Assembly: GCF_016888135.1 (NCBI RefSeq)
Contig: NZ_JACSWB010000129.1
Location: 1-64,000, forward strand
DNA length: 64,000 nt
Direction of reading: 5' to 3'
Origin: Leptolyngbya sp. CCY15150
GTDB lineage: Bacteria; Cyanobacteriota; Cyanobacteriia; RECH01
The notes under the pieces are model-generated. The model had not been told where the DNA came from. It worked only from the letters and a program-made list of their open reading frames with translations, and made no database searches. Positions 13,988-32,509 of the stretch are shown piece after piece. Position numbers and translations under genes: made by a program. Position 1 is the first letter of the stretch. Every line of letters starts with the position of its first letter.

Positions 13988-15583
13988 TTAGACAAGATTG
14001 AGGGTTTGGCGCAGTCGAGTTTGGTCACTACTGCTGATTTTGAAGCGACCGTTTTCAACATCGCGAATCCAGCTCTGGCTTTTGCCAAGACGCTCGGCCA
14101 GTGCCCGTTGACTGAGATTCAGTTGCTGACGAGCAGCTTTGATGACGTGACTGGATAGGGGATGGGCATGAACTGTGGATGATTTGCTCTGGCGGCGATG
14201 TTTGGTGCGGGGCCGTCGCAGGCTCTGCTGCCACTCTTCTGACAACTCAAATCCTAGAATCCGTGCATTGAGCAATCGTTGCCACTTGTTCCGAGGTGCA
14301 ATATCTGTGAGGCTGAGGGCTTGGTTGGCGTCGTTCGTCCAAAATTCTAGAGCATCATCCGCATCATCCGGAATATCTGCAACCCTTGCCCAAAGGGGTT
14401 GAATATCAGATCCGTAGGTATCTGGATCAAACTGTGGCTTGAGTCCGTAATGGTAGATGGCTTCCAAGTCACTTTCAAAGGTTTTGAGTAAGCGCTTGTG
14501 GGCTCCGCGAATGGTCATCGCATCGGATAGCCGTTGATTTCCGTAGGCAATGCGCAGTAATGTCCGGACTGTGACGCGGTGATCGCCCCCTAGACGCAGC
14601 TTGAAGACAAGCCACAGCAGTAGCCGTACGGCTCCCTCATGCTGCTGCCAGTTTCCCATCACTTCTGTGAGCAGTGACTGAGGTAAGGTACCGTATTGAT
14701 AAAAAGCGGTTTGTTTACGGTAGTCTTGCTTGTTTAGAAAATGCTTGGCCCAGTCGCCAGTTTGAATGCTGAACCCCAGACCAATGAGGTGGCGATAGCC
14801 TTGGTCGTCGATGTCAAAGTAATATTGGGTATCCAGCAACTGCCACACGGGCTGTTCGGGAATTGAGAATCCTGGCACTTTGCCTTGACGTGGCCAGTCT
14901 AGAGTGACCAACAGTTGGCAGGCTTGATACACTAAGTCTTTGATTAAGGTAAGCTTTGCCAGTTTTGTGAGGTCTTTGCGTTTGTGAAGTCCTAGGTATT
15001 GTTCGATATGTTGATCATTGAGGATAAAGGGCGTTTCCCAAGGACAGTTAAGTGTTGTAGCATAGGCGGCAAAGATCAGATGAATACAGACGGCACGAAT
15101 ATCAAAGTTGCCTAGGGCAGCCGTTCCCAAACTATAGGCCATCGGCGGCGAGTCTGGTAATTCTGGATTGGAGGATAGGCGAAACTGAATATTTCCCTGA
15201 CCTCGGTGGATGCTGCGTTGGTAGCACAAGTGATCATGGTCATCAGCATACCAAGACAGCGACTCTCGTTGAGCCAAAATGTTGCTAGCTTCCCAGACCA
15301 CCATGGAGGAGGCAAAGGGCGTCGTTTTACCATTGAGAAAGATTTCGTGGATGGCGGCGGGTAGCAGGGTACTTCTGTTGCGCCCTTTTTTGGCGGGGAG
15401 CGGCGTTACCGAGCTAACCGCACAAACGTCCACGCAGCGAGGAGTATCTACATCTGGGCAGCGATCGCACAAGGTTGGATCGATCCAGTAACCAGCGTCA
15501 GTGGTCTTAACTGCGCCGTTTGGGCAGCTTGAATGACATTGATCGCAGGCAATACAGCTTGCTTTAACGGCATACGTCATCAC
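13988..15583 (-). CDS. cnfR: nif transcriptional activator CnfR/PatB (ferredoxin-HTH protein)
   Basis: The 531-aa protein matches PatB/CnfR in length and layout. The N-terminus carries two cluster-binding motifs, CIACDQCHSSCPNG and CDRCPDVDTPRC-VDVC, able to hold [4Fe-4S] clusters. A long central region follows. The C-terminal XRE-type helix-turn-helix reads LNLSQRALAERLGKSQSWIRDVENGRF. In Leptolyngbya boryana CnfR is the master activator of nif genes under low oxygen and low nitrogen; the clusters are thought to sense oxygen. It lies at the end of the leftward nif arm but has its own promoter with an NtcA box (15723-15736). It is expected to act on the GAGTAC motifs between nifP and nifB. 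Confidence 0.92.
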   Translation of the reverse strand: MMTYAVKASCIACDQCHSSCPNGAVKTTDAGYWIDPTLCDRCPDVDTPRCVDVCAVSSVTPLPAKKGRNRSTLLPAAIHEIFLNGKTTPFASSMVVWEASNILAQRESLSWYADDHDHLCYQRSIHRGQGNIQFRLSSNPELPDSPPMAYSLGTAALGNFDIRAVCIHLIFAAYATTLNCPWETPFILNDQHIEQYLGLHKRKDLTKLAKLTLIKDLVYQACQLLVTLDWPRQGKVPGFSIPEQPVWQLLDTQYYFDIDDQGYRHLIGLGFSIQTGDWAKHFLNKQDYRKQTAFYQYGTLPQSLLTEVMGNWQQHEGAVRLLLWLVFKLRLGGDHRVTVRTLLRIAYGNQRLSDAMTIRGAHKRLLKTFESDLEAIYHYGLKPQFDPDTYGSDIQPLWARVADIPDDADDALEFWTNDANQALSLTDIAPRNKWQRLLNARILGFELSEEWQQSLRRPRTKHRRQSKSSTVHAHPLSSHVIKAARQQLNLSQRALAERLGKSQSWIRDVENGRFKISSSDQTRLRQTLNLV

Positions 15584-18391: not shown

Positions 18392-18657
18392 GAGTTGGCC
18401 AAGCAGGTGACGCGGGTATGCCAACATCGCTCCAACCAGGTCACGCCTTCCTGGCGAGATAGGGAAAACTGGTGTAGGGTGCTGCGAACAAGTAGTAGGG
18501 CTAGGGCATGGTTGACCTCAACTCGTAGGCTGCCATCGGCGGGACAGGCACAGGGAATATTCAGCTCCTGAAGACGATGGTGGATAGACCAGCGATCGCA
18601 CCGCTGAACTGAGACGGCTTGCCCCCAGTCGGAGGGAGCGGCAAAGGATGGATTCAT
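18388..18657 (-). CDS. small nif-cluster protein, Asr1405/Asl0597-like
   Basis: The 89-aa protein is translationally coupled to nifP (start and stop share ATGA at 18654-18657). The core [20 protein letters not shown] and [14 protein letters not shown] resemble the cyanobacterial Asr1405/Asl0597 family, whose gene also sits beside the serine acetyltransferase gene in the Anabaena nif region (from memory, not searched). Its function is unknown. Its cysteines (residues about 19, 36, 38, 78, 85) could bind a metal. The C-terminus is read through a slippage repeat. Confidence 0.65.
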
Positions 18658-19406
18658 GAGCTAACCTCCAAGGGGGTTTGAGATGGATGGGTGAGAGTTG
18701 ATGATTGAAGATGGGACTGAAGATGAGTAAGTTGTGCTTCCAAGGTTTCGATTCGATCCAAAAGCGATCGCAACGATGCGGCATCGGTATCGGGAAGCTG
18801 AGCATGGTCTAAGGGCGCGGTTCTAGCATTACCACGGGATACGTGACGGCTGGGAATGCCAACAGCGGTGTAGTGGGCTGGTACAGCCCGTAGGACAACG
18901 GCCCCAGCCCCAATCCGGGCATAGTCACCAATGGCGATCGGCCCCAAAATCTTGGCCCCAGCTCCGATCACCACATGGCTACCTACGGTGGGATGGCGTT
19001 TACCTATGTCCCGGCCAGTGCCCCCTAGGGTGACACCTTGGTAAATCAAACTATAGTCTCCGACCCTAGCCGTTTCGCCAATTACCACCCCGAGACCGTG
19101 GTCGATGAAAACACCCCGGCCTATCTGGGCTCCGGGGTGAATTTCGATCCCTGTTAAGAAACGACTCAGGTGGGCCATGAAGCGAGGCAGGAGACGTAGA
19201 TTCCGTTGATAAAGCCAGTGGGCTAGGCGATGGGCAGCGATCGCGTGCAAGCCTGGATAGCAACAGAGCACCTCTAGCCAATGGTGTGCTGCTGGGTCAC
19301 GCTCAAAAATAATGGCAATATCATCGAACAGCGGCAGCGATCGATGGAGTCGAGGTAGGGTGCTCTGGACGTGATGGAGGAAGTGGCGGGGTGAGGAGAA
19401 AACCAT
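18654..19406 (-). CDS. nifP: NifP, serine O-acetyltransferase
   Basis: The 250-aa CysE-type enzyme makes O-acetylserine from serine and acetyl-CoA, boosting cysteine for Fe-S cluster assembly by NifS/NifU. An N-terminal helical domain ([29 protein letters not shown]) is followed by left-handed beta-helix hexapeptides ([46 protein letters not shown]) and the catalytic His in FIDHG. It is the first gene of the leftward nif arm. A GAGTAC-core motif lies 88 bp upstream. Confidence 0.92.
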
Positions 19407-19493
19407 GGTGCGCTGGGGGCTGTGTTTTCCTGCTTATAGCAACCAGCCTTTTGAAGCTGAGGGCAGGGGTGAAGCATCCAGATTTTAAAGCTA

Positions 19494-19509
19494 TTAGCAC
19501 TGTACTCAG
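19494..19509 (-). promoter_or_regulatory. GAGTAC-core motif facing nifP (putative CnfR site)
   Basis: TTAGCACTGTACTCAG is the reverse complement of CTGAGTACAGTGCTAA. The site before nifB (20495-20510) reads TTGAGTACAGTGCTAA, so 15 of 16 bases agree in mirror orientation. It lies 88 bp from the nifP start. Confidence 0.6.
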
Positions 19510-19613
19510 CCGCTATACCGTAGGCGGGCAAACCGTTTTAGATTTCTTTAAGGACAGGGGACAGGTATTTTCGGGTTGGCGCTTAGGTATTTCCTAGGGG
19601 AGGGACGAGCATT

Positions 19614-19695
19614 GTGTACTCACGGGCAATGCCTAGGCCATTCATGGGTGAGCACGATTTTTAGGCATAGATAAGACGTTGAAATGGTGTACTCA
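19614..19695 (-). promoter_or_regulatory. two further GTGTACTCA motifs facing nifP
   Basis: GTGTACTCA occurs at 19614-19622 and 19687-19695, the reverse complement of the TGAGTACAC seen before nifB at 20381. The two sites are 73 bp apart. Confidence 0.5.
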
Positions 19696-19911
19696 TTCGC
19701 GGTCTTTTCGTAGCCTACTTAACGTTTTTACTAAAAGAACTGTAGCAGACTATGCAGAAGGTCGTCTAATCTCCTCAGTAATCCGTAATCACGCTTGTCG
19801 AATGGCTGAGGAAGGGATGTCTGGGCAAGAAACTCAATGGAGTTCAAGCTGGAATCTCTGAAAAGGGCAGCGATCGCTTGATGGCCCAGCGTTGTTGAAG
19901 AGAGAAGCAGT

Positions 19912-20040
19912 GGCGTTGCTGAATCGCAAGATGATGTGCGCCAACGAACTCTGAGCGAGATGCTCACACGCACTATTCCCAATCAAGGTCGTGCGGGTAT
20001 CTTGCTCCTCCCCGATTTCATCACTTCATTCAGCAACGCC
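19912..20040. mobile_element. MITE copy 6 (129 bp) between nifP and nifB
   Basis: The ends are GGCGTTGCTGAATCG and CATTCAGCAACGCC. The flanks GAAGCAGT (19904-19911) and GAGGCAGT (20041-20048) match at 7 of 8. It separates the nifP-facing motif set from the nifB-facing set. Confidence 0.88.
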
Positions 20041-20307
20041 GAGGCAGTCACAATGCTTGATATGGGGTTTCAGGACGTCTTGTTTAAGGTTCATGTCCTG
20101 ATGCGGTCATGCCGATGGAGCGATCTCTCGTAAGCGATTTCTAGCCATAGACCTACTCGCAATCATGGTGGTTTACATTGCTTAATGCAGAATAGTTAAC
20201 TCTGCTACTGTTTGATCTTGTAAATAGAAATGATGGATACAAACGCTAGTTCTTATTTTCTTAACAAGTTCTTGATTCTGTATCAATCGCTGCAAAAAGC
20301 GTTCATT

Positions 20308-20390
20308 TGAGTACTCAGAAAACAGTGGATAGAAAAAGGAGCATTTTTACATCAAGTCTTTGCTGGGTAAGAGTTTGACGTGAGTACACA
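20308..20390 (+). promoter_or_regulatory. two GAGTAC-core motifs facing nifB
   Basis: TGAGTACTCA (20308-20317, a perfect palindrome) and TGAGTACACA (20381-20390) are 73 bp apart, the same spacing as the distal pair on the nifP side. Confidence 0.5.
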
Positions 20391-20494
20391 AATACAGATC
20401 TGAACGAAAAAAATACCAGAGCCGGCACGTGAAAATACTAGTACCCCTACTATCAAAAAAATATACTTTCCATAGCTAACAAGAGTTTCAGGAC

Positions 20495-20510
20495 TTGAGT
20501 ACAGTGCTAA
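20495..20510 (+). promoter_or_regulatory. GAGTAC-core motif facing nifB (putative CnfR site)
   Basis: TTGAGTACAGTGCTAA is the partner of the 19494-19509 site. It lies 205 bp from the nifB start. Assignment to CnfR is inferred from position and symmetry. Confidence 0.6.
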
Positions 20511-20715
20511 TCATGTAATAAATCCTATCGGCTCATGAGGCATAGTCCGGGATAGGGCGGTTGCTATAACTCTTTCAACGCCAAGCACCGCAGCATGAAG
20601 CGAGAAACGATTCAACTTCAACAGATGACAAGGTGACTCCTGGCTTAGTTCAAGCCTTCTTACCTAGACCTAGATCCATCTTGTTGAGCTCTAACCCCAC
20701 TACATCCTCAAACCC

Positions 20716-22206
20716 ATGACGCCACCGCCCTCTACTGCCCTGACCTCTGCGCCCCTCGCGACGCCCGATCTGGACATTACCCTAACTAAGACAAAGACTC
20801 TAGTTAACTCTGCCGGTGGCTGTGGTTGTAGCAGCAACACCGATATCGATGAACTCAGCGAAAGCATGAGAGCCCGTATCGAAAAGCATCCTTGTTATAG
20901 CGAAGACGCCCATCATCATTACGCACGTATGCATGTAGCTGTTGCTCCAGCTTGCAACATTCAGTGTAACTACTGCAACCGTAAATATGACTGTGCTAAC
21001 GAAAGCCGTCCTGGGGTGGTGAGTGAATTACTGACTCCTGAAGAAGCCGCTCATAAGGTTCTAGTGGTAGCAGGTAAGATTCCCCAAATGACGGTGTTGG
21101 GCATCGCTGGTCCAGGTGATCCGTTGGCAAACCCTGAGCAAACCTTCCGCACCTTTGAACTGATTGCTGACCAAGCACCTGATATCAAGCTTTGTCTCTC
21201 TACCAATGGCCTGATGCTACCGGACTACGTGGATCGGATCAAAGCTTTGAATGTTGATCATGTTACCATCACGATTAATATGATCGATCCTGAAATTGGC
21301 GCTATGATTTATCCCTGGGTACATTATCGCCGGAAGCGCTACCGTGGTATTGAAGGAGTTAAAATTCTCCATGAACGCCAGATGGAAGGACTGCAGGCTC
21401 TTAAAGAAGCTGACATCCTTTGCAAGGTTAATTCCGTTATGATTCCTGGCATCAATGACCATCATCTACCAGAGGTCAACCAAGCTATTCGGGAACGGGG
21501 CGCGTTTCTGCATAATATTATGCCTCTTATCTCTGCTCCAGAACATGGTACTTATTTTGGACTCAATGGTCAGCGTGGTCCTAGCCCTCAAGAGCTGAAG
21601 CAGGTACAAGATAACTGTGCAGGTAACCTAAAGCTGATGCGCCACTGTCGCCAGTGTCGAGCTGATGCTGTTGGCCTCCTAGGCGAAGATCGCAGCCAGG
21701 AATTTACGAAGCAAAAGTTCATGGAAATGCCTGTGGATTATAGTGTTGCCCAGCGTCAGGCTGTTCACATTGGCATCGAGCAGGCGAAGGCGGCGGTGGC
21801 GGCAAAACGTCAGGCAGCCGTTAGACCTCCCATCGCAACAGCGCAGCCTTCTCCCAAGGTGCTAGTAGCGATCGCCACTAAGGGAGGCGGCCTGGTGAAC
21901 CAACATTTTGGTCACGCTAAGGAGTTCATGATTTACGAAGTTGACGCAACTGCCGCCAAATTTGTCAGCCACCGTAAGGTAGCCGATTACTGCCAGGGTG
22001 GTTATGGCGAAGAGGCGATGCTCAACGGCATTATTACGACCATTTCGGATTGTCAAGCTGTGTTTGCATCCAAAGTAGGGCCTTGCCCCCAGCGTGAACT
22101 GGAAAAAGCCGGTTTAGTCGTCGTTGAAGCCTATGACGTGATTGAGAGCGTTGCTCGACAGTTTTATGACGAACATGTATTAACTCGGCAGTCAGCAACG
22201 TTCTAG
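20716..22206 (+). CDS. nifB: NifB, FeMo-cofactor core (NifB-co) synthase
   Basis: The 496-aa radical SAM enzyme fuses two 4Fe clusters with a carbide to make the 8Fe cofactor core. It has an N-terminal [13 protein letters not shown] motif, the radical SAM triad [15 protein letters not shown], the SAM-binding GPGDPL and a [10 protein letters not shown] accessory cluster motif. The C-terminal NifX/NafY-like domain has [16 protein letters not shown]. It is the first gene of the rightward nif arm. There is no strong Shine-Dalgarno before ATG 20716. Confidence 0.97.
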
Positions 22207-29626: not shown

Positions 29627-32509
29627 ATGACTCTCACCCAAGGCAAACTCAACCAACTCCTAACCCAGCCCGGCTGTGAGCACAACCACAAGAAAGGTGG
29701 TCAAGGTAAACATAAAGCGTGCCAACAACAGGCTCAACCTGGTGCAGCTCAGGGTGGTTGTGCTTTTGATGGAGCCAGCATTGCGCTTGTTCCGATCACT
29801 GATGTGGCTCATGTCGTCCATGGCCCAATTGCTTGTGCCGGGAACTCATGGGGTAGCCGGGGTAGCTTGTCCTCAGGGCCGATGATCTATAAATTAGGCT
29901 TCACCACCGACTTAAGTGAAAATGACATTATCTTTGGCGGTGAAAAGAAGCTCTATCAAGCCATTTATGAAGTCAAGACACGCTACAGTCCTGCTGCCGT
30001 TTTTGTATATCTAACCTGTGTTACAGCGCTAATCGGAGATGATTTAGAAGCCGTATGCCGGGTAGCTAGCCAGAAATTTGAGATTCCTGTGATTCCTGTG
30101 ACCTCTCCTGGATTTGTTGGCAGTAAAAATCTGGGCAACCGTATCGGCGGCGAAGCACTGCTCACCTATGTGGTAGGAACGGCTGAGCCTGAGATCACAA
30201 CGCCCTATGACATTAATTTAATCGGTGAATATAATATTGCAGGAGAAATGTGGGGAGTGCTTCCCCTTTTGGAACAGCTAGGTATTCGTGTTTTAGCTAA
30301 GATAACTGGAGATGCTCGCTACCATGATGTGGCCTGTGCCCATCGGGCTAAGCTCAACGTGATGATCTGCTCCAAGGCACTGATCAATATGGCTCAAGCA
30401 ATGGAGGAACGCTACGGCATTCCCTACATCGAAGCCTCAATCTACGGCATTGAAGATATGAATCACTTACTGCGTAGTATCGCAGCTAAGCTAGGAGATG
30501 CTAATTTGCAGGCTCGGGTTGAGACCCTCATCGCCCGTGAAACAGCCCACCTAGATGACGTTCTTGCTCCGTACCGCGATCGCCTCCGTGGTAAACGAGT
30601 CGTGCTTTATACTGGAGGCGTTAAAAGCTGGTCTATTATTTCTGCTGCTAAAGACCTAGGAATTGATGTGGTGGCCACCAGCACTAAAAAGAGTACAGAG
30701 GAAGATAAGGCTCGTATCAAGACTCTGCTGGGTCAAGATGGCATCATGATGCAGAAGGGCAACGCTCAAGAATTGCTGACCGTGATTGCTAAAACCAAGG
30801 CGGACATGTTGATTGCTGGTGGACGCAATCAGTACACTGCTCTCAAGGCCCGCATCCCTTTTCTTGATATTAACCAGGAGCGCCATCACCCCTATGCTGG
30901 TTATGTTGGCATGGTGGAAATGGCTAAGGAACTGGATGAAGCGCTGCATAGCCCGGTGTGGCGGCAAGCACGGTTAGCACCGCCCTGGGATAAGCGTGAG
31001 CCGATCGATGATGTCTCACCCGCGTCTGATGATTTGACCTCTATCACCCAGGTGCTCTCTCGTCAAAAGTCTCTCACGGTCAATCCTCTCAAGCAAAGTC
31101 AACCTCTGGGGGCAGCTCTAGCCTTTCTGGGGATTCAGGGGATGATGCCCCTATTCCACGGCTCCCAGGGCTGTACAGCCTTTGCCAAGGTTATGCTAGT
31201 GCGTCACTTTCGCGAAGCTATTCCCCTTTCCACCACAGCCATGACGGAAGTCAGCACGATCTTGGGCGGTGAGAGTAATGTGGAAACTGCAATTTTAACC
31301 TTGCTAGAAAAATCCCAGCCCCAGATCATCGGTCTTTGCACCACAGGATTGACAGAAACCCGAGGCGATGACATGCCGGATATTCTCCGCACTATCCGCG
31401 ATCGCCACCCGGAGCTAGTCAATTTCCCCATCCCCTTGGCGGCAACACCTGATTTTAAGGGAGCGTTGCAGGATGGCTATGCGGCAGCCGTTGAGGCGTT
31501 GGTGCGGGATGTACCGTTTGACCTGGAGATTGCTCAGGCGGCTTGTCAGGACAGCGATCAGGACAGCTTCAAAAATCAGGATAGCGATCAGGGAAAGCGA
31601 TCGCCCTCTGACAACCACCTGACTTCCCTTGCTTCTCGCTTGTCCAGAAAACAGCTTCAGATCACAGTTTTAGCAGGGCCATCCCTGTCTCCTGGAGATG
31701 TGCAGGCTGTGAAAGATATGATCGAGCTGTTTCATATGACGGCTGTGGTAGTGCCCGATCTTTCCGCCTCCCTCGATGGTCATTTAGCCAACGATTATCA
31801 AGCCGTTACTACTGGCGGTACCCCACTATCCCATCTGCGTTGCCTGGGTGACTCTGTCTTTACCCTTGCCCTAGGTCAGTCTATGGCTGCTGCTGCTGCC
31901 CAAGTACACCAACGCTTCGGCACAGAGTTTGAGGTTTTTCATAGCCTCACCGGGCTAGAAGCGGTTGATCGCTTTCTACATCGGCTATCGCTTGTCAGCC
32001 AACAGCCTATGCCTGAAAAAGTTTGGCAGCAGCGCCAGCAGTTACAGGATGCGCTGCTCGATACCCACTTTTTCTTTGGTCGCAAACGAGTGGCTCTAGC
32101 CCTAGAACCCGATCTACTCTACCGTATGGCATGGTGGTTGACGACAACTGGTTCCACTGTCCATGCCGCCGTTACGACTACCAAATCTCCCTTGCTTAAA
32201 CATCTACCCATTGATACCGTCACGATTGGTGACCTAGAAGATCTGGAAGATCTGGCTGTTGGCGCAGATCTCATTATTGCTAACTCCAATGCTAAGGGAC
32301 TAGCCCAGCGCTTGGGTATCCCTCTCTACCGTCTTGGCTTTCCCATTTTTGATCGCCTCGGCAACGGGCGTCATTGCACCGTTGGCTACAGCGGCACAAC
32401 TCAACTCCTGTTTGACATCGGCAATATCTTTCTTGATGCTGATGAGGCCGCAGCCCACGCCTTGGTGTATGGGTGGCAAGAGGGCGATCGCTCTGCTAAG
32501 ACTGGATAA
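29627..32509 (+). CDS. nifEN: fused NifE-NifN, FeMo-cofactor assembly scaffold
   Basis: The 960-aa protein joins NifE (about 1-455) and NifN (about 475-960) in one frame. NifE carries cluster cysteines in GGCAFDGASIAL, HGPIACAGNSWGS and YLTCVTALIGDD. NifN begins around SITQVLSRQKSLTVNPLKQS with QPLG, then HGSQGCTAFAKVML and CTTGLTETRGDDM. The linker (PPWDKREPIDDVSPASDDL) contains no Met, so a hidden separate nifN start is unlikely. NifEN normally is an alpha2beta2 scaffold where NifB-co is matured with Mo and homocitrate. The NifN part has a Gln/Asp/Ser-rich insertion near 641-665 made of DNA repeats. Confidence 0.95.
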   Translation: MTLTQGKLNQLLTQPGCEHNHKKGGQGKHKACQQQAQPGAAQGGCAFDGASIALVPITDVAHVVHGPIACAGNSWGSRGSLSSGPMIYKLGFTTDLSENDIIFGGEKKLYQAIYEVKTRYSPAAVFVYLTCVTALIGDDLEAVCRVASQKFEIPVIPVTSPGFVGSKNLGNRIGGEALLTYVVGTAEPEITTPYDINLIGEYNIAGEMWGVLPLLEQLGIRVLAKITGDARYHDVACAHRAKLNVMICSKALINMAQAMEERYGIPYIEASIYGIEDMNHLLRSIAAKLGDANLQARVETLIARETAHLDDVLAPYRDRLRGKRVVLYTGGVKSWSIISAAKDLGIDVVATSTKKSTEEDKARIKTLLGQDGIMMQKGNAQELLTVIAKTKADMLIAGGRNQYTALKARIPFLDINQERHHPYAGYVGMVEMAKELDEALHSPVWRQARLAPPWDKREPIDDVSPASDDLTSITQVLSRQKSLTVNPLKQSQPLGAALAFLGIQGMMPLFHGSQGCTAFAKVMLVRHFREAIPLSTTAMTEVSTILGGESNVETAILTLLEKSQPQIIGLCTTGLTETRGDDMPDILRTIRDRHPELVNFPIPLAATPDFKGALQDGYAAAVEALVRDVPFDLEIAQAACQDSDQDSFKNQDSDQGKRSPSDNHLTSLASRLSRKQLQITVLAGPSLSPGDVQAVKDMIELFHMTAVVVPDLSASLDGHLANDYQAVTTGGTPLSHLRCLGDSVFTLALGQSMAAAAAQVHQRFGTEFEVFHSLTGLEAVDRFLHRLSLVSQQPMPEKVWQQRQQLQDALLDTHFFFGRKRVALALEPDLLYRMAWWLTTTGSTVHAAVTTTKSPLLKHLPIDTVTIGDLEDLEDLAVGADLIIANSNAKGLAQRLGIPLYRLGFPIFDRLGNGRHCTVGYSGTTQLLFDIGNIFLDADEAAAHALVYGWQEGDRSAKTG

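Follow-up and report, generated by a model that had tools for sequence, protein, structure and literature searches.

Two probable CnfR-type promoters lie back to back between nifP and nifB in the cyanobacterium Leptolyngbya sp. CCY15150

Introduction

The divergent genes nifP and nifB of Leptolyngbya sp. CCY15150 are separated by an intergenic region in which copies of the motif TGAGTAC form an almost mirror-symmetric array. What kind of element is this array, which protein acts on it, and does its symmetry matter? The original prediction, made from the window alone (the whole stretch of 64,000 nucleotides analysed), proposed one activator, CnfR, driving two divergent arms. Our analysis indicates that the region very probably holds two complete activator-dependent promoters of the CnfR type, one for nifP and one for nifB, placed back to back, which CnfR would contact. 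This kind of element has already been described in other species; what is new here is its complete architecture in this genome, a spacing rule extending across the phylum, the resolution of the mirror into two independent modules, and a candidate additional target.

Results

Genes and sites of the nifP-nifB region

Both flanking genes were confirmed by family matches (Table 1), nifP as a member of the serine acetyltransferase family, and nifB is followed by genes for a ferredoxin-type protein and an aminotransferase class V protein (at the nifS position), and by nifH. CnfR was also expected in the cluster, and a CnfR-like protein is indeed encoded there. It matches Pfam HTH_3 (8e-9, residues 481-517) and an NCBIfam di-4Fe-4S model (4e-14, residues 2-65, below the cut-off of that model), and judging from these domains its architecture is that of CnfR/PatB. 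Farther along, nifE and nifN are fused in one reading frame of 960 residues (29627-32509), whose product passes the cut-off of the model for bifunctional NifEN.

The six predicted TGAGTAC/GTACTCA motifs are all present, although their reverse-strand coordinates had been placed 1-2 bases too low. All of them point outward, the three minus-strand sites towards nifP and the three plus-strand sites towards nifB; a seventh TGAGTAC match, at 20311-20317 (-), arises because the site at 20308 is a palindrome. When recomputed, the 16-mers around the two S3 sites were identical at 15 of 16 positions, and the distal spacing agreed between the arms as had been stated, while the proximal spacings differ by a single base pair. 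Across the centre, the two S1 sites are about 610 bp apart.

Table 1. Features of the nifP-nifB region and its regulator gene, with positions in the window
Feature	Position	Strand	Basis or remark
cnfR (patB-type activator)	13988..15583	-	N-terminal 4Fe-4S dicluster ferredoxin region and C-terminal XRE-type helix-turn-helix
nifP (CysE-like serine O-acetyltransferase), left divergent gene	18654..19406	-	TIGR01172 cysE, 1.6e-72
Extended -10 TGCTATAA, nifP promoter	19434..19441	-	66 bases from S3
S3, nifP side, TGAGTACAGTGCTAAT	19502..19508	-	exact motif match; S3 profile score 11.2, second in the window
Repeats CAATGC, AAATAC, AAATAC, nifP side	19565..19614	-	22 bp apart; sequence reading and arm alignment
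S2, nifP side	19616..19622	-	exact TGAGTAC; 114 bp to S3
S1, nifP side	19689..19695	-	exact TGAGTAC; 73 bp to S2
MITE-like element, between the arms, outside the promoters	19912..20040	.	terminal repeat GGCGTTGCTGAAT; flanks gaagcagt/gaggcagt
S1, nifB side, palindromic TGAGTACTCA	20308..20314	+	exact TGAGTAC
S2, nifB side	20381..20387	+	exact TGAGTAC; 73 bp to S1
AAATAC repeats, nifB side, starts 20390, 20411, 20433, the last being AAATACTAGTACC	20390..20445	+	21 and 22 bp apart; sequence and arm alignment
A-tract between nifB-side repeats and S3	20455..20461	+	sequence and arm alignment
S3, nifB side, TTGAGTACAGTGCTAATCATGTAATAA	20496..20502	+	115 bp to S2; S3 profile score 26.1, best in the window
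Extended -10 TGCTATAA, nifB promoter	20562..20569	+	65 bases from S3
nifB, right divergent gene	20716..22206	+	TIGR01290, 1e-195

The complete module

The TGAGTAC motifs are genuine parts of the element, but the complete element is longer. Derived from the arrays of other genomes and from an alignment of 24 arms at 12 loci, it is a module of about 265 bp, composed of S1, a 73-bp interval, S2, AAATAC repeats every 21-22 bp, an A-tract, S3 (TGAGTACAnnnnnTAAT) and, 65-66 bp further on, an extended -10 (TGCTATAA). The consensus across genomes reads TGAGTACA for S1, TGAGTACAnAAATAC for S2, AAATACTnGTnCC for the repeats, which follow about every 22 bp, then an A-tract, TTGAGTACAnnnnTAATnAnTnnAATAA for S3 and TGnTATAA. 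As arrays were called from exact GAGTAC triples only, the S1, S2 and S3 logos are biased at the GAGTAC letters. An S3 profile trained without this genus nevertheless ranked the two sites of the array first and second in the window, the next score being -0.3. The periodicity of the A-tracts is suggestive only.

Distribution across cyanobacteria

We searched a phylum sample of 386 cyanobacterial genomes, and in about 50 of these nifB and/or nifP is preceded by the module. Of the 386 genomes, 50 contain true triple arrays, each together with both nifB and CnfR (Fisher 5e-48), and 58 contain the composite site GAGTACN5TAATN48-54TGNTANAA, all but one (57/58) being nifB-positive (1e-55). CnfR homologs were found in 73 of the 386 genomes, including every nifB-positive one (68/68). 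A perfect triple is missing from 18 nifB-positive genomes; of these, 16 still have an S3-like site at 65-67 bases from TGnTATAA. The comparison of cyanobacterial nifB and nifP upstream regions bears out the link to these genes, as 131 of the 147 distinct arrays lie upstream of nifB (79) or nifP (52), with 16 elsewhere. In the proteobacterial nifB loci (L065-L071, L073-L080) the array was absent, and a single stray GAGTAC was seen in total.

Some loci depart from this picture. Triple matches at L088, L089, L090 and L094, with neither nifB nor nifP downstream, were excluded from the spacing statistics. The full array at L113 (G177:C1:3886925-3887126) is not directly followed by a match to nifB or nifP, nifB being located about 6 kb downstream; an insertion or rearrangement possibly split the array from its gene. 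In addition, the nifB matches of six genomes (G017, G057, G090, G234, G025 and G371) contain an in-frame stop (TAG, TAA or TGA) inside the aligned stretch, which may reflect the match edge, decay or excisable elements.

Spacing within the module

In each of the 70 representative arrays, 65-68 bases separate S3 from the extended -10. For the other intervals, we counted all GAGTAC pairs less than 260 bp apart upstream of nifB and nifP, a count free of the bias of array calling: there are 238 such pairs, as compared to five for three permuted control hexamers combined. S1-S2 distances are 70-75 or 83-84, and S2-S3 distances 113-120 or 124-129, with none at 121-123; exceptions are few (single pairs at 80, 96 and 131). 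The classes of each spacer (about 73 and 84; about 116 and 127) are thus about 11 bp apart, i.e. approximately one helical turn. Switches between classes are seen in both nifB and nifP promoters and in several families, their number of independent events being lowered by shared ancestry; for example, nifP S2-S3 is 127-128 at the Nostocaceae loci L024 and L159 and 116-118 at most others. A period of 10.5 bp was sought by a Rayleigh scan over all spacings, which did not single it out (R = 0.51 at 10.5 bp, 0.53 at 9.0 and 0.49 at 11.5), and the argument for phasing is therefore built on the discrete spacer classes and not on a periodogram.

Read most simply, these distances suggest that the element tolerates changes by whole helical turns but not by half turns, as would suit an ordered complex on a single DNA face. 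Three loci (L022, L038 and L170) have an S1-S2 distance of 80 bp, which is not a whole number of turns; L022 and L038 carry an extra GAGTAC 84 bp upstream of S1, and at L170 a second GAGTAC is also present at the normal 72 bp.

Discussion

One symmetric device or two promoters

The mirror layout could in principle be functional in itself: a single bidirectional enhancer, in which one CnfR complex loops the roughly 610 bp between the S1 sites, would make the symmetry matter. Such an enhancer would account for the common 73-bp distal spacing and nearly equal proximal spacings of the two arms, and for the divergent layout kept at many non-Nostocaceae loci; moreover, one apparent CnfR site serves the divergent nifZT2 and nifB2 operons of A. 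variabilis (PMC8510180). We nonetheless regard it as unlikely. In Nostocaceae, nifB and nifP each keep their own array although the genes are separated by distances that range from about 6 kb (G385) up to 3.8 Mb (G106), so that the mirror is better seen as two independent back-to-back promoters. Conservation also follows the arms: between this genome and a congener (G002), the nifB module is 88% identical and the nifP module 78%, as against 57% for the centre. The centre in addition holds a MITE-like element of 129 bp, with an imperfect 8-bp flank duplication and 32 related copies in the genome. A congeneric locus (L082) has diverged sequence at the corresponding position, with similar repeat ends.

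The idea of one activator with two divergent arms therefore survives in part. A shared activator fits the confinement of the arrays to genomes with both CnfR and nifB, but the mirror is not the functional unit, as the modules work apart, and the symmetry arises because two promoters of the same type sit in one divergent gene pair.

Which activator

We infer that CnfR contacts the TGAGTAC sites directly. The L. boryana promoters PnifB and PnifP are both activated by CnfR, in Synechocystis 6803 as well (PMC5943405). According to the literature, CnfR needs both its Fe-S region and its helix-turn-helix. In A. variabilis, three conserved elements upstream of nifB are regarded as CnfR sites; nifB1 transcription falls by half when site 1 or site 2 is lost, and by 75% when both are lost (PMC8510180).

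A different nitrogen regulator, such as NtcA or another XRE- or sigma-linked factor, might instead occupy the sites, the effect of CnfR then being indirect. CnfR and nif co-occur almost perfectly, so that phylogenetic profiles cannot separate the two readings: the co-occurrence is confounded with nitrogen fixation, because any nif-specific regulator would show it likewise. Expression of cnfR2 also needs NtcA (PMC8510180). Against this, the intergenic region (19407-20715) was found to contain no NtcA consensus (GTAN8TAC), which speaks against a direct role of NtcA; in Synechocystis 6803, a species lacking nif genes, CnfR by itself suffices to activate PnifB and PnifP (PMC5943405); and supplying CnfR activates nifB2 even in an ntcA mutant of A. 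variabilis (PMC8510180). Another regulator at these sites is thus very unlikely.

With CnfR as the activator, each promoter would work as follows. In each, three direct TGAGTAC sites are aimed at the gene it serves; AAATAC repeats at intervals of 21-22 bp and then the A-tract separate site 2 from site 3, and some 66 bp beyond site 3 comes an extended -10 that, by analogy with A. variabilis, would require no -35. At low oxygen, the Fe-S clusters of CnfR would stay intact and the protein would bind the three co-oriented sites, which near-integral helical spacing would bring onto one face of the DNA. The resulting complex would recruit RNA polymerase to the extended -10, turning on both divergent operons, with transcription in this strain presumably starting just beyond that element.

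Duplication and chance

A recent inverted duplication, in which the likeness of the arms would reflect descent and not function, might seem to be indicated by the S3 16-mers. We rejected it as highly improbable, since arm identity is no higher than between arms of different genomes: the arms here are 49% identical, the within-genome mean is 0.50, and comparisons across genomes give 0.51 (nifB-nifB), 0.50 (nifP-nifP) and 0.475 (nifB-nifP), while conservation across the phylum is limited to motifs and spacings.

Chance clustering of a common hexamer, for which it may be said that TGAGTAC is not rare in the window (15 occurrences against 5 expected), is refuted, as the cluster has P ~4e-8 genome-wide and the same promoters carry the array again across the phylum. 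The 8-mer TGAGTACA occurs only 87 times in the 5.75 Mb genome, which places the cluster beyond chance (five copies in 1017 bp, P ~7e-12 per window before genome-wide correction), and shuffling the intergenic DNA gives on average 0.17 motifs and never more than 3, as compared to the 7 observed. The ordered triple pattern has two matches in the genome, both in the nifP-nifB region and one per strand (reversed control, one match). Nor are such sites equally frequent at non-nif promoters, as the composite site matches exactly twice, both times at the nifP-nifB array. The simpler pattern TGAGTACN6TA was discarded as uninformative: it matches elsewhere and not at the array, the TAAT offset being wrong.

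Relation to known promoters

The region combines several features of CnfR-dependent nif promoters: it precedes both nifB and nifP in a cyanobacterial nitrogen fixer that encodes CnfR, and has three sites per arm, in the order and spacing of Nostocales nifB. In its two arms, the sequence TGCTATAA stands at 65 and 66 bases from S3. The L. boryana element reportedly lies some 76 bp ahead of the start sites, a position that fits S3 here. The nifB/nifP element of that species (Tsujimoto et al. 2016, doi 10.1111/mmi.13402) concerns the same two divergent promoters and the same activator. For the L. boryana nifB promoter, nine conserved motifs (I-IX) are cited in PMC5943405.

The closest described counterparts are CS1-CS3 of A. 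variabilis nifB1 and nifB2, likewise three elements upstream of nifB; those two promoters have an extended -10 and no -35 (PMC8510180). The kind of element is known, as the modules match CS1-CS3, which have been proposed as CnfR sites in both A. variabilis and L. boryana, in number, position and extended -10; it is described in PMC8510180, which cites Tsujimoto 2016 and another study on nifB1/nifB2. At Nostocales loci, the three GAGTAC sites, about 350-600 bp upstream of the nifB coding match, correspond to the 300-600 bp given for the CS elements (PMC8510180), though the latter range is relative to the transcription start and S3 here is only about 66 bases from the -10. The present region differs from A. 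variabilis in having arrays on both sides of divergent nifP and nifB, and S2-S3 spacings of 114-115 instead of about 126-127.

Two other promoter types are less close. DIF+ heterocyst promoters (PMC6133370) share an extended -10-like element, but carry DIF1 (TCCGGA) at -35 and lack a conserved upstream array, and identity with this different class was rejected. Proteobacterial NifA/sigma-54 nif promoters are also activator-dependent with upstream sites, but proteobacterial nifB loci lack the array, unlike the cyanobacterial module.

A third target and the wider regulon

A third full S1-S2-S3 array is found in Nostocaceae. Ten arrays of this family (L121, L123, L135, L142, L144, L149, L155, L157, L158 and L096) precede an operon of four genes, t1 (142 aa), t2 (87 aa), t3 (103 aa) and t4 (121 aa), the products of which match no Pfam or NCBIfam family above cut-off. 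At locus L180 (L180:7200-10582), t1-t4 are followed by a luciferase-like monooxygenase gene, and a gene for a PLP-dependent cysteine-synthase-like enzyme lies upstream. In several more Nostocaceae, the composite site is found again at roughly 10-16 kb from cnfR. The operon t1-t4 is a possible, so far unrecognised, CnfR target. By size, order and patB proximity, it may correspond to alr2522-asr2523-alr2524 of Anabaena 7120, of which asr2523 and alr2524 appear in a list of nitrogen-fixer genes (PMC2821919) and show lower expression in a sigC mutant (PMC4390870). An extended hyp operon was also considered as the third target, and rejected on gene content.

More broadly, the nif promoters might represent a phase-locked three-site enhancer, with S1-S2 at about 7 or 8 turns, S2-S3 at about 11 or 12, evolutionary shifts by single turns and a CnfR complex on one face of the DNA, in control of a regulon that includes the operon of heterocyst formers. 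We advance this model tentatively, giving it slightly less than an even chance. Among the papers listed by a full-text literature search on GAGTAC and nif, none deals with this motif, and a search on CnfR and helical phasing found no paper. The 65-68 rule between S3 and the -10, the spacer classes one turn apart and the third full-array promoter in Nostocaceae appear to be new.

As nif clusters are being transferred to non-fixing hosts, the nifB and nifP promoters are switches that need to work there, and the parts list established here (three sites, phased repeats and a fixed 66 bp from S3 to the -10) shows engineers which distances to leave alone. The composite site, with 2 sites in 5.75 Mb and 0 for its reversed control, provides a pattern for genome-wide searches of the CnfR regulon, and the third array offers, in heterocyst formers, a single new candidate target operon that can be put to the test.
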